This document shows, one piece after another, positions 138 to 30,221 of a stretch of DNA of 42,759 bases. The stretch's first letter is position 1. The number at the start of each line of letters is the position of its first letter. Location: positions 1 through 42,759 of IMG/VR virus record IMGVR_UViG_3300047552_001328; one strand, written 5' to 3'. The translations under genes and the position numbers were made by a program. Under the pieces are notes generated by a model. It was not told the origin of the DNA. It saw only the letters and a list, made by a program, of their open reading frames with translations, and searched no databases. Origin of the DNA: a virus.

Positions 138-1391
138 ATGACAATTCGCGCATATAAACAACAGATTTTTCCGAATGCAGAGCAAAAGGAACTCCTTGAA
201 AGTTATCAAAGCGCATCCCGTTTTGTCTGGAATTTTGGGTTATCCATGATTAGCAAATCTTATGCAAGACGCAAAGATAAAACTAATTGGATGACGGTAT
301 CCAAGCTAATCACCCAGCTAAAGAAAACCAGTCGGTATGAATGGCTTAATGATGTTCCATCCGATGTAGTCGCACAAAAACTCAGAGATTTAGACCGTGC
401 TTATCAAAATTTCTTTGCCAAACGTGCCAAGTATCCAAGATTTAGAAAAAAAGGATCATCCTGGTCAATCCGTTTTTGTTTTGATAATCGGCATACAGGA
501 AAAATCAAGTCGTGGGCAAATGGTGAAATGGTATTACCAAAGATTGGGAAAATAAAACTAAGTCAAAAACTGGCAAATGGAATGCCTAAATTAATCACGA
601 TAAGCAAAGATGGAACAGGGGCTTATTTTGCCAGTTACACAGTAGAACAAAATATTAAACACAAGCCAAAAACAGGTTCAATGGTCGGTATTGATATGGG
701 TATCAAATCATTAGCTACCTTATCGAATGGTCAAGTGATTGAAAACCCACAATTTCTAAAGTCCATGTTAAAGACTTTGCGCAAGCGGCAAAAATCGCTA
801 TCCAGAAAGCACAAAGGCTCAAACAGATGGAAAAAACAGGCACAGCGTGTTGCTAAAACACACGCAAAAGTACGGAACAGTCGGCGTGATTACCTACACA
901 AAGCAACTACGGCAATTGTCGAAAACCAAGACATCATTGTTGTCGAGTCCCTTCGTGTAGCCAACATGGTAAAAAATAGCCGATTGTCCCGTTCCATTAG
1001 CGATACCAGCATGAGCGAATTTATTTCCATGCTGGAATATAAGTGCGAATGGTACGGGAAAGAATTTATCAAGGTAGACACCTGGTTTGCGAGTTCAAAG
1101 ACTTGCTCCTGTTGTGGTCACAAGCTTGATGAACTGGATTTATCAACCCGAAGCTGGGAGTGTCCCAAGTGCAAGACAAGACACGAGCGAGACTTCAATG
1201 CCTCGAAAAATATTCTAGCTGAAGGATTGAGGATAACGGGGAGAACCCGCGAATCCGATAAGGATGTTAAAAATTGCGTGGACTTTTCGGCTCTGGCTTC
1301 CGTGTTGAACGGCAGTGAAACTGAAAAGGAAGAAGCGCGAATCGTAGGCGAACCGAATATTCTGTATGAAACGGGCTTGAGGAGCGCATGA
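138..1391 (+). CDS. tnpB: TnpB-family RNA-guided endonuclease (IS200/IS605-type element, no TnpA)
   Basis: This 417-aa protein has the TnpB architecture: an N-terminal helix-turn-helix (OrfB_IS605 type), a central wedge region, and a split RuvC nuclease with all three acidic residues, D186 (in GIDMG), E270 (in VVESLR) and D352 (in RDFNAS). A zinc ribbon (C323, C326, C342, C345) lies between the last two. TnpB proteins cut DNA guided by an RNA transcribed from the element's right end. The intact triad argues against a dead regulator (TldR-like). No TnpA transposase is present, so movement would need help in trans. The element sits inside a ParB-like gene, and its last codons overlap the terminase small-subunit start; the GGAG ribosome binding site of that gene lies within tnpB codons. 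Alternative: a captured accessory nuclease no longer mobile. Confidence 0.9.
   Translation: MTIRAYKQQIFPNAEQKELLESYQSASRFVWNFGLSMISKSYARRKDKTNWMTVSKLITQLKKTSRYEWLNDVPSDVVAQKLRDLDRAYQNFFAKRAKYPRFRKKGSSWSIRFCFDNRHTGKIKSWANGEMVLPKIGKIKLSQKLANGMPKLITISKDGTGAYFASYTVEQNIKHKPKTGSMVGIDMGIKSLATLSNGQVIENPQFLKSMLKTLRKRQKSLSRKHKGSNRWKKQAQRVAKTHAKVRNSRRDYLHKATTAIVENQDIIVVESLRVANMVKNSRLSRSISDTSMSEFISMLEYKCEWYGKEFIKVDTWFASSKTCSCCGHKLDELDLSTRSWECPKCKTRHERDFNASKNILAEGLRITGRTRESDKDVKNCVDFSALASVLNGSETEKEEARIVGEPNILYETGLRSA
1225..1365 (+). ncRNA. Candidate TnpB guide RNA (omegaRNA/reRNA) scaffold and right end
   Basis: In TnpB-only elements the guide RNA scaffold overlaps the 3' end of tnpB and the element's right end. 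Here the last codons show matching signs: a CGGG/CCCG hairpin near 1237-1251, and a GAAGC...AATCGTAGGCGAACC segment at 1333-1356 that resembles conserved right-end sequence. The protein tail after the RuvC III motif (DFNAS) is also low in recognisable protein conservation. The 3' boundary, and so the guide, cannot be fixed by eye. If it is near 1360-1365, the guide would be read from the terminase leader. Confidence 0.25.
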
Positions 1392-25035: not shown

Positions 25036-26943
25036 ATGCTCACGTTCACTTTCCAGCCAATCCACTACCGCCCAAGCCTCACATTTGAATTCAGACAACC
25101 TGGGCTATATTGCACTGCCAGCGTCGTTTTAGATGACGCGGTAGGTTCTGCTGAGTGCGAATTTGATGTAAACATTCTGCGAAAATTAACAGCCAGCGCA
25201 CTCATTAACTACGAACAGGGGCAGGCTGTTACTGATAATCTACATATCATCACTCAACAAGCGCAATTCAACAGCGCAAGCGTACTCTGTGAACATCAAA
25301 ACGGGCAGTTAATCATTGTCGATACGGTCTCTGACTTGCAGCAAATGGCATTAACGCGCATTGAGCATCACACAGCGCAACAACAAGCCGCGTTATTAAT
25401 CCAGCGATTCTGTAGCTTGCTGAATATCAGTGTGCTAATCAATCGCCATTTTTGCTTTACTGAGCAAGACGGCGTGCTACTCAGTAACAGCATTCAATCT
25501 GTGCAAGATGTGCTGGAATTTATCACTACACAAACTCACGACAACAAGCAGCAAGCATTACAACAACTGGTCAAACTGTGCATCAATACGCCTTACAGCC
25601 TGTTTTTATCCAAACGGTTTTGCGATCTGAAGCAACAAGCCAAACCGCCGCCGTTTGGGAAAAGCCCACACATTGATAGACCACGTCCACCGCCAGAACC
25701 ACAACCGCCCGATCACGTTACCATCACCATTCCCACAAAAGAGGCATACACCGTGCAACACGTCATTGAGGTTAAAACCGTGATTGGCAATCATCCTGTG
25801 CCACTGTCAAAAATCAGTCTGAATTACGATGTTGATGCGTTCTGTTGGTCATTTAGCGGCGTATTAGCTGATAAAAACGCGCTGTCATTGGTGATTATGA
25901 ATAACGACACGCCTATTCAGCTATCGATCACGATCAATGGTCACAACTGGATTGTTTTAGTCGAAAAAATCCCTGAAACCCGTCGTTTTGCACAAACTGA
26001 CATAACGCTACAAGGGCGGTCATTATCCGCGCTATTAGGTGCGCCTTATCAAATGTTATCCAGTTACACCGCTGGCAGTGATATGACAGTGCAACAAATA
26101 GCCGACTCTTTATTGCCTTTTGGCTGGTCTATCGATTGGCAATGCGCAACGCCCTGGCTTATCCCTGCCAACACTTACAGCTACACCCAACAAACACGCC
26201 TGCAAGCGTTGGCAAAACTTGCGCAAGACATAGGCGCGGTGCTGTTACCCAGTCCAAACGAGCAAGTTTTAACAATCCAGCCACGTTATCCAACCCTGCC
26301 TTGGAATTACTACACGCCTGGCATTGATGCCGATCTGGTCATTCCTGACGATGCTATTGAATCCATCGGCGTAGAATCTCGCACCCAGTCACCTATTAAT
26401 GCCGTGTATGTACATGGCGATCAAAACGGCGTGCTGGCATGGTGTCGATTAAATGGCACGGCTGGCGATGTATTGGCTCCGACAGAAAGCAATGCACTGA
26501 TAACCGATGTGACCGCCGCGCGTGCGTTAGGCGAAAGAATACTGGCAGGGCATAGCACACAGCCTGTAACCACAAGCCTAACAACTTGGCTGGGTGGTGA
26601 TTTTCCACTGGCTAGAATCGGCTGGTTACTGGAAGCCAACAGCGAACGGGCAATCATCAACAGCGTAGCGATAAGCGTCGAACTGGGCAAAGTAAGACAA
26701 ACCATAGGCGTAGGTGAAAACACAACGAACCCCTACTCAAAACTGCTGAATTTATTACCCGCGCAACCTTTGCTAGTTGGCGAATTGGTCTCAAGTTTTG
26801 ATGGCAAATCGATCTTAACTTTGTTAGATGGCGGGGTAATAACAGCGCGGGGTAATGGTACGGTAGGGCTTAAATATTATGTGCGCAACGGATTGATAGA
26901 ATCCGTTGCGCCTGATTTAGCGTTGAGTGAGATTGTTGTTTAA
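25036..26943 (+). CDS. Tail hub / baseplate-like protein
   Basis: A 635-aa protein. Its centre and C-terminal half resemble tail hub proteins of the gpD/late-control type. These parts are SLNYDVDAFCWSFSGVLADK, INGHNWIVLVEKIPETRRFA, the helical DMTVQQIADSLLPFGWSIDW, QTRLQALAKLAQDIGAVLLP (the hub LQALxxLAxxxGA element) and a C-terminal beta barrel with ITARGNGTVGLKYYVRNG. A proline-rich linker (PRPPPEPQPPDH, about residues 217-228) separates a helical N-terminal region. Its stop overlaps the convergent antirepressor stop by 4 bases. Confidence 0.75.
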   Translation: MLTFTFQPIHYRPSLTFEFRQPGLYCTASVVLDDAVGSAECEFDVNILRKLTASALINYEQGQAVTDNLHIITQQAQFNSASVLCEHQNGQLIIVDTVSDLQQMALTRIEHHTAQQQAALLIQRFCSLLNISVLINRHFCFTEQDGVLLSNSIQSVQDVLEFITTQTHDNKQQALQQLVKLCINTPYSLFLSKRFCDLKQQAKPPPFGKSPHIDRPRPPPEPQPPDHVTITIPTKEAYTVQHVIEVKTVIGNHPVPLSKISLNYDVDAFCWSFSGVLADKNALSLVIMNNDTPIQLSITINGHNWIVLVEKIPETRRFAQTDITLQGRSLSALLGAPYQMLSSYTAGSDMTVQQIADSLLPFGWSIDWQCATPWLIPANTYSYTQQTRLQALAKLAQDIGAVLLPSPNEQVLTIQPRYPTLPWNYYTPGIDADLVIPDDAIESIGVESRTQSPINAVYVHGDQNGVLAWCRLNGTAGDVLAPTESNALITDVTAARALGERILAGHSTQPVTTSLTTWLGGDFPLARIGWLLEANSERAIINSVAISVELGKVRQTIGVGENTTNPYSKLLNLLPAQPLLVGELVSSFDGKSILTLLDGGVITARGNGTVGLKYYVRNGLIESVAPDLALSEIVV

Positions 26944-27689
26944 ACAGCTGTGTTTTTTTCGTCGAGTTGTTTAATGATGTCTTGCCAGTCCACTTTACCA
27001 ACTAATTTTAGATTAAAGCGTTCAAAGAATTTGCGTTTTAGTACGCCTGTGAACGGGACGTTATCGCCTAAAACGGTTTTGCAAAACAATTCTTGCACAT
27101 CTATTAGCCCGTCCGTAAAACTAGCTACATCGTCTTTTTTACTTTTGATGTGCAATAACGCCGCGTCAAAGTGTTTGGCTGGCAGGTACTCCAGGCTGTC
27201 AATCTGATAAATGCCACGCAAACCGTTGACTAGCCAGACTATCGCGCTTTGACTGCGTGGCATGAGGAAACATGCGTCTCGACAGGCTTGGTAAAGTTGT
27301 TCTTTTTGTTTGGCTGTGATTAAGTCATGCTTGTCGGTTTTGTGGTAGTAGCCATTTTTACGGATGCTAGGTAATACGTCATTAAAGACCCAATTTTGAA
27401 ACTGCTTGGCTTCAGTTTTGTTACTGCGAAAAATGACGCGGTAAAGGTTGGGTTCGGAGATAAATATCATTTCTTGGTTGCCGCCATTCGAGGGGGTAGC
27501 ATATTTTTCTACCCCTTTGTCATCCATTTGAAAACGGCTAACTGGGCGGTTCTGGTCAAGGTCAAGAATCTTGCAAACATCACGCAGGCAAAACCAAGGC
27601 TCATTGTCGATGATGATAACGCGAACTTGATAATTCTGATTGAATTGAAAAACGGTAGGCGCGGTTGCGCTAGGAATTTGAGTATTCAT
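26940..27689 (-). CDS. Antirepressor with BRO-N domain
   Basis: A 249-aa protein. Residues about 12-115 form a BRO-N domain: QVRVIIIDNEPWFCLRDVCK, then ILDLDQNRPVSRFQMDD, then EMIFISEPNLYRVIFRSNKT, QFQNWVFNDVLPSIRKNGYY. Such proteins bind DNA or repressors and relieve repression. The C-terminal half is helical and unassigned. The frame extends 17 codons upstream, but the ATG at 27689 begins a normal protein (MNTQIP). The start lies within the end of an icd-like leader ORF, so translation is probably coupled. Upstream lies a C4-type antisense RNA with its own promoter, as for phage P1 ant. Since CI lacks an autocleavage domain, this protein is the best candidate inducer. Confidence 0.87.
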   Translation of the reverse strand: MNTQIPSATAPTVFQFNQNYQVRVIIIDNEPWFCLRDVCKILDLDQNRPVSRFQMDDKGVEKYATPSNGGNQEMIFISEPNLYRVIFRSNKTEAKQFQNWVFNDVLPSIRKNGYYHKTDKHDLITAKQKEQLYQACRDACFLMPRSQSAIVWLVNGLRGIYQIDSLEYLPAKHFDAALLHIKSKKDDVASFTDGLIDVQELFCKTVLGDNVPFTGVLKRKFFERFNLKLVGKVDWQDIIKQLDEKNTAV

Positions 27690-27768
27690 GATTGCGACTC
27701 GGATAAAGTTTAAAACCAATCTCCGAACGATGCCAATCATTGGGAGATAGACTGAACGAGGTTGGCAT
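27670..27768 (-). CDS. icd-like leader ORF overlapping the antirepressor start
   Basis: A 32-codon frame starting at ATG 27768 (MPTSFSLSPNDWHRSEIGF) and stopping 20 bases inside the antirepressor gene. In P1, icd precedes and overlaps ant, and ant translation depends on it. The start codon region (ATGCCAACC on the minus strand) is complementary to the C4-like RNA segment GGATTGGCAT. The frame remains open further upstream for about 50 codons, with sequence reminiscent of Ash-family phage ORFs (GRDWHP...), but without a standard start. No strong ribosome binding site is visible at 27768. Confidence 0.5.
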   Translation of the reverse strand: MPTSFSLSPNDWHRSEIGFKLYPSRNHEYSNS

Positions 27769-27842
27769 ACTGGAGTCGCGTCCAGCGAGCGTTTCCGCTC
27801 CCCCGCTCAGCCCATCATAATGAAAGGTAAAGCTATAGGCAC

Positions 27843-27912
27843 AAAAAAACCGCTCGAATGCGGCTATGCCGCGACATTCAGGATGCCAATCCCGACCACC
27901 AATGTTGGCAGT
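27843..27912 (-). ncRNA. c4: C4-type antirepressor antisense RNA
   Basis: Predicted RNA of about 70 nt on the minus strand, starting some 7 bases after a consensus promoter and ending in an intrinsic terminator. Structure: a first stem around CCAACATTGG, then a hairpin GCGGC-ATA-GCCGC extended by GAAT/ATTC, then CCGC-ATTCGA-GCGG followed by seven T. Two unpaired or loop segments match downstream leader sites: GATTGGCAT against ATGCCAACC at the icd-like start, and CGAGCG against CGCTCG at 27786-27791. P1 c4 RNA (77 nt) works in this way by blocking icd and so ant translation. Match to the Rfam C4 family is expected but was not run. Confidence 0.75.
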
Positions 27913-27918
27913 GGTTTA

Positions 27919-27947
27919 ATCATAGGCTCGATGGGCGGCAGTGTCAA
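27919..27947 (-). promoter_or_regulatory. Consensus sigma-70 promoter for the C4 RNA / antirepressor transcript
   Basis: On the minus strand TTGACA (27947-27942) is separated by exactly 17 bases from TATGAT (27924-27919). This is a near-perfect consensus promoter, expected to fire constitutively in the prophage. It overlaps the last codons of the upstream 87-aa gene. Transcription would start near 27912 and give the C4 RNA; read-through past its terminator would give the antirepressor message. Confidence 0.85.
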
Positions 27948-29960: not shown

Positions 29961-30221
29961 TTACCCGTTCATTTTGTCAAATTCGCGTTTTGCTTTATCG
30001 CGTTGCGTGTCGATTAAGTTGGCTAAATCTTCGGCGTGTATCATCCATGGGCTTTTTTGCGCTCCCATTCTAAATGCTGGTATTGGTAATTGTTTCATGT
30101 TGGCTTTCCGCGCGGCTTCCTGTTTACTTAAACCGAAATACTTCTGGCTTACTTTTTCAAGTTCAATCGACGCGCTGTTGAATTCTGCAAGCAGGGCAAA
30201 ATAGGTGCTAGTTTGTATCAT
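29961..30221 (-). CDS. PrtN-like transcription activator (pyocin activator family)
   Basis: An 86-aa protein with the PrtN pattern. An N-terminal strand-helix (TYFALLAEFNSASIELEKVS) is followed by QKYFGLSKQEAARKANMKQL with the KYFGLSxxEA core, then PIPAFRMGAQKSPWMIHAED and a C-terminal LANLIDTQRDKAKREF. PrtN activates pyocin genes in Pseudomonas. Phage members of the family are common, and their targets are mostly unknown. It overlaps the upstream gene by 14 bases. A role in driving int or late genes would be inference. Confidence 0.8.
   Translation of the reverse strand: MIQTSTYFALLAEFNSASIELEKVSQKYFGLSKQEAARKANMKQLPIPAFRMGAQKSPWMIHAEDLANLIDTQRDKAKREFDKMNG

Follow-up and report, generated by a model that had tools for sequence, protein, structure and literature searches.

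The minus-strand region 26940-27947 of the virus contig IMGVR_UViG_3300047552_001328, analysed here over 42,759 nucleotides (the window), constitutes with high confidence a C4-type antirepressor module, and its C4 RNA probably represses a BRO-N antirepressor through the target sites a2-b2; both statements taken jointly are given the same probability as the second. In the C4 family, RNase P releases the antisense RNA from a longer precursor and the RNA represses antirepressor synthesis, and the immI operon of P1/P7 comprises the genes c4, icd and ant. C4-controlled antirepressor operons are already known, and the same order of elements is annotated in the APSE-2 record. New in the present work are (i) a corrected anatomy of the module, (ii) a formal test of the covariation between targets and C4, (iii) the strict linkage of isrK with C4, and (iv) a testable re-reading of isrK, in which isrK-type leaders are C4 targets and, possibly, attenuators or decoys.

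Anatomy of the module

The features are collected in Table 1. Sites are named after the P1 record: a is the conserved and b the variable target, and a' and b' are their complements in C4.

Table 1. Features of the antirepressor module (positions in the window).
Feature	Position	Strand	Evidence and remarks
Putative sigma-70-type promoter, TTGACA-N17-TATGAT	27919..27947	-	11/12 consensus positions
isrK-like leader RNA with first C4 target and terminator	27843..27915	-	RF01394 42.3 bits, RF03163 22.0 bits, both below cut-off
Target a1, GATTGGCAT	27883..27891	-	7 bp with C4 a'; a1/a' covary in relatives
Target b1, GTCGCG	27870..27875	-	6 bp with C4 b'; covaries in relatives
Possible antiterminator hairpin, GCGGC-ATA-GCCGC	27860..27872	-	Predicted fold, -7.1 kcal/mol
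Intrinsic terminator of leader	27842..27865	-	-7.9 kcal/mol
C4 antisense RNA	27740..27822	-	RF01695 62.9 bits, cut-off 45; fold z-score -5.5
C4 b' loop, ACGCGACTC (variable, sets specificity)	27773..27781	-	
C4 a' arm, ATGCCAACC	27760..27768	-	
Target a2, GATTGGCAT	27730..27738	-	a2/a' covary in relatives
Target b2, GAGTCGC	27694..27700	-	7 bp with C4 b'; covaries in relatives
BRO-N antirepressor gene, 249 codons from ATG at 27689	26940..27689	-	PF02498 78.9 bits; PHROG anti-repressor families
32-codon ORF ('icd-like')	27670..27768	-	Starts on C4 a' arm; probably incidental

A preliminary description, made from the letters of this DNA, had recognised the promoter, the two-stem segment with its intrinsic terminator, the complementarity of GATTGGCAT to ATGCCAACC and the BRO-N antirepressor, and all four are borne out. 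It had, however, taken the segment 27843-27915 to be C4. The Rfam covariance search that it proposed returns a C4 match above the cut-off, located just downstream of that segment, which is instead the leader carrying the first C4 target. The minimum-energy fold of the matched RNA is the family structure, i.e., a long stem around a tetraloop hairpin and the b' hairpin with a' alongside, and its z-score refers to shuffled sequences. The layout of the C4 family is likewise present, with a1-b1 upstream and a2-b2 downstream in one predicted transcript that would start at ∼27912 (-). Promoter-like sites are not rare in shuffles, and the position of the promoter weighs more than its score. Together, the C4 match above cut-off and the paired target sites support the idea that RNA controls a BRO-N antirepressor in the manner of P1 immI. 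The protein itself exceeds the PF02498 profile cut-off (25.6) by a wide margin.

The leader can be called no more than 'isrK-like', its match to the isrK model having an E-value of 2.4e-7 at a score under the cut-off of 50; the c4-a1b1 model matches at 27875-27925, under its cut-off of 46.7. Only 20 nt separate the end of the leader from C4, so that a terminated leader lies directly upstream of C4, as with isrK. A blastn comparison of the bare RNA region with phages gave no matches, and a search for a shared repressor operator at the promoter yielded nothing convincing.

Within the window, the seven base pairs of a1/a' (TTGGCAT/ATGCCAA) involve GATTGGCAT and part of ATGCCAACC, and GATTGGCAT occurs three times in 42.8 kb, two of these within the module as a1 and a2. 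Site b2 ends 4 nt upstream of the antirepressor ATG, where there is only a weak Shine-Dalgarno-like GAG. The match of b2 with b' is unexpected by chance (shuffle P 0.00085); that of b1 with b' is not significant alone in the window (shuffle P 0.07), and the case for b1 rests therefore on the relatives. Sites b1 and b2 as well as the second copy of GATTGGCAT had previously been overlooked. The noted match of CGAGCG to CGCTCG is not confirmed as part of the control: it relates a word of the terminator hairpin to an arm of the internal tetraloop hairpin of C4, lies outside the a/b pairing, and involves a word found 11 times in the window when both strands are counted.

A second metagenome virus contig, IMGVR_UViG_3300042988_001454 (L002 / L071 / L296), carries an antirepressor, an integrase and a C4 module all identical to those of the window, and the integrase relatives of this phage are virus contigs. 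A PrtN/pyocin-activator-like protein that also belongs to a PHROG excisionase family (29961-30221, minus strand) adjoins the integrase, and the left end of the window encodes an OrfB_IS605/TnpB-like transposase with a Cas12f1-like domain (138-1391, plus strand).

Covariation of target sites with C4

Most matches to the initial wide DNA pattern were due to chance, and the search therefore moved to stricter patterns and finally to loci selected with Rfam. The pattern-selected modules (45 distinct b' loops) had been selected on their a sites, and the test was for this reason rerun on 53 loci picked in genomes by the C4 model alone. Loci are partly non-independent, several of them sharing a genome, and loops with identical cores were dropped. 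In the first set, b' matches its own leader over 6.6 nt on average, compared with 4.0 nt for the leaders of other loci, and its own gene start over 7.2 nt, compared with 4.7 nt; none of 20,000 permutations was as good in either case. In the second set, the corresponding values are 7.28 (own) versus 5.22 (other loci) upstream and 7.91 versus 5.11 downstream, again with 0/20,000 permutations each. The a' arm likewise matches its own sites better across relatives, and in most loci of the second set b2 is found ∼30-40 nt past C4, where it contains or borders a Shine-Dalgarno sequence and precedes an ATG. At the level of sequence, both target sites are thus seen to covary with C4 across relatives, and it is the formal test of this relation that is new here.

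One locus (L349; G275:C9:1700-3092) contains four consecutive C4 cassettes, each with leader, C4, a2-b2 and ATG. The letters of a differ in all four cassettes and change together with their targets, while b differs in one; the locus is a tandem array of C4 specificities.

A possible attenuator in the leader

In the predicted fold of the window's leader, antiterminator and terminator share an arm: b1 overlaps the 5' arm of the antiterminator, the 3' arm of which overlaps the terminator stem. When b1 is barred from pairing, predicted terminator pairing rises to 0.57 from 0.02-0.25, a range reflecting dependence on the 5' end that is folded. Among 36 relatives, the terminator probability is lower in natural leaders (0.425) than in leaders with shuffled b1 (0.584; P 0.005), and it reaches 0.688 when b1 is blocked. 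The leaders of P1 (L136 8250-8340) and PAJU2 (L132) share the predicted overlap of b1, antiterminator and terminator. A universal attenuator was considered and rejected, five of eight reference phages (Gifsy-1, APSE-2, Mcat4, L003 and NAR688) showing no switch. We consider C4-driven attenuation of the leader a plausible proposal in this phage, if somewhat less probable than not, and do not extend it into a general rule.

In the proposed mechanism, a single promoter would serve the isrK-like leader (a1-b1 and terminator), C4, a2-b2 and the BRO-N antirepressor. By analogy with P1/P7, C4 would be cut from the readthrough transcript, and pairing of a' and b' with a2 and b2 would block ribosomes at the antirepressor. 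Folding suggests in addition that C4 bound to a1/b1 could break the antiterminator hairpin and cause the leader to terminate. The resulting short RNA would resemble isrK and could act as a decoy by binding C4. When free C4 is lacking, as in a new infection or after C4 has been soaked up, the antirepressor would be made and the phage repressor inactivated, favouring lysis.

Linkage of isrK with C4 and the Gifsy-1 system

Every one of the 30 isrK matches above cut-off in the genomes covered has a C4 match downstream on its strand, within 8-69 nt, two of these partners scoring under the C4 cut-off. Of the 30, 24 come from genomes picked because they contain such modules, and 6 from 274 evenly sampled genomes of a single class. 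The isrK-orf45-anrP region of Gifsy-1 consists of an isrK match of 79.3 bits, a C4 match of 69.0 bits and the antirepressor, in this order; its C4 covers orf45/STnc1160, and its b2 adjoins the Shine-Dalgarno sequence of anrP. The IsrK paper does not mention C4, and likens IsrK to P4 SeqA and STnc1160 to P4 CI (PMC4825925). A search of the open-licence literature retrieved no paper on a mechanistic link between isrK and C4.

The published experiments on Gifsy-1 can be re-read accordingly, although this reading is ours and not that of the authors: IsrK supplied in trans would work by titrating C4. IsrK in trans activates anrP >100-fold, a1 mutants are inactive, and a' mutants are derepressed (PMC4825925), which supports titration; the key residues G28/G31 and C159/C162 fall, by position, in a1 and a'. 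Double mutants regain repression in part (224 and 327 units versus 4 for wild type; PMC4825925), as expected if a2 is left unmatched. Counting against this reading, the IsrK growth arrest became worse rather than better when orf45 RNA, of which C4 is a part, was made constitutively, and a C18/G173 pairing outside a/b also matters (PMC4825925). On balance we lean slightly towards the view that the isrK family represents target-bearing leaders of C4 operons rather than an independent sRNA, that C4 controls termination in some phages, that the terminated leader titrates C4, and that in Gifsy-1 IsrK is the decoy and orf45/STnc1160 is C4.

The same data bear on an alternative to attenuation, namely that the leader RNA mainly titrates C4, or refolds the long mRNA in the way suggested for IsrK of Gifsy-1 (PMC4825925), so that the short RNA would be an activator of the antirepressor and not an attenuation product. 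The activation in trans and its loss in a1 mutants, the match of leader a1-b1 to C4 in relatives and the linkage in 30/30 cases all agree with it. It is, however, compatible with attenuation rather than exclusive of it, and the free leader of the window is predicted to read through instead of terminating, which would limit its use as a decoy; we consider this alternative credible but less probable than not.

It is improbable that the C4 module has decayed and is inactive in this phage. The C4 score is under that of many relatives, b1 is short, the Shine-Dalgarno sequence is weak and the leader stays under the cut-offs, but the C4 fold is fully paired, promoter, terminator, b2 and antirepressor frame are intact, and the same module is found on a second contig (L002).

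The 32-codon ORF

The 'icd-like' ORF of the preliminary description exists, and yet its supposed icd start is the a' arm of C4 itself. Neither this ORF nor the open frame that spans leader and C4, which had been compared to Ash proteins, has any match in Pfam or NCBIfam at E up to 1, be it to Icd, Ash or another family; P1 Icd itself lacks a Pfam family match, which makes the negative result for Icd weak evidence. A conserved small ORF across C4 was also considered and discarded: frames vary among relatives, some frame being open in 36/43, which favours conservation of RNA and not of protein. A P1-type icd with b2 at its start is likewise not found, and since b2 is located at the antirepressor's own start, coupling via the icd-like ORF, though possible, is not needed for control. 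We regard as very improbable the scheme in which the short terminated RNA (27843-27912) is the antisense and the icd-like ORF start its target, with translation coupled to the antirepressor: the complementarity of GATTGGCAT to ATGCCAA is real and orf45 is coupled to anrP in Gifsy-1 (PMC4825925), but the C4 model matches the downstream segment, ATGCCAACC sits inside the C4 fold, Icd is not recognised, the frame that orf45 uses in Gifsy-1 ends after only three codons in the window, and b2 lies at the antirepressor ATG.

Among 5426 complete E. coli genomes, 2381 contain DNA similar to the isrK-C4 module of a Klebsiella phage (hits H56-H75). The usual annotation of this DNA is an 'Icd-like' or 'ash family' protein, and some of these annotations may be misread RNA.

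Comparison with known systems

The module resembles P1/P7 immI in its promoter, leader a1-b1, C4, a2-b2 and antirepressor on a single transcript (P1 record), and in that b2 overlaps a ribosome site. In P1, b2 is placed at the start of icd, whereas b2 of the window is placed at the start of the antirepressor, which is of BRO-N type and not preceded by a recognisable Icd. As in Gifsy-1, an isrK-type leader is followed by C4 and then by b2 near the antirepressor start; Gifsy-1 differs in its antirepressor, in lacking a predicted attenuator switch and in its orf45 frame. The order isrK, C4, BRO-N is that of APSE-2, the BRO-N protein of which is 60% identical to the window's over the N-terminal part; the letters of a and b and the scores differ, and APSE-2 has no predicted switch. 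The order leader, C4, antirepressor also occurs in Gifsy-1, Mcat4, NAR688, PAJU2 and L003.

In its mode of action, the attenuator proposed here resembles P4 CI, an antisense RNA which, according to the summary in PMC4825925, is cut from a leader, pairs with seqA and seqC on both sides and favours termination. In contrast to the module in the window, P4 CI controls replication genes and not an antirepressor.

A further RNA, sRNA-Xcc1 (RF02221; L126 1380-1465, L127, L128, L129 1134-1220 and 1368-1451; L302-L331), is regarded in the literature as an sRNA linked to virulence. In phages of Moraxella and Aggregatibacter it lies upstream of BRO-N antirepressors. Over 31 loci, its 3' part matches the own leader better than that of others (8.1 versus 5.9 nt) and likewise the own downstream start (6.8 versus 5.7 nt), with 0/20,000 permutations in both cases; judged from these sequences, sRNA-Xcc1 may be a second C4-like antisense RNA.

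The present analysis thus provides a predicted RNA-based immunity circuit for this phage, with its specificity letters (a' and b') defined. It ties together Rfam families that have been curated apart, isrK being placed outside the C4 clan, and allows a Salmonella prophage system described in the literature to be re-read in a testable way. It further suggests that a single transcript may unite attenuator, decoy and translational block in C4 immunity.
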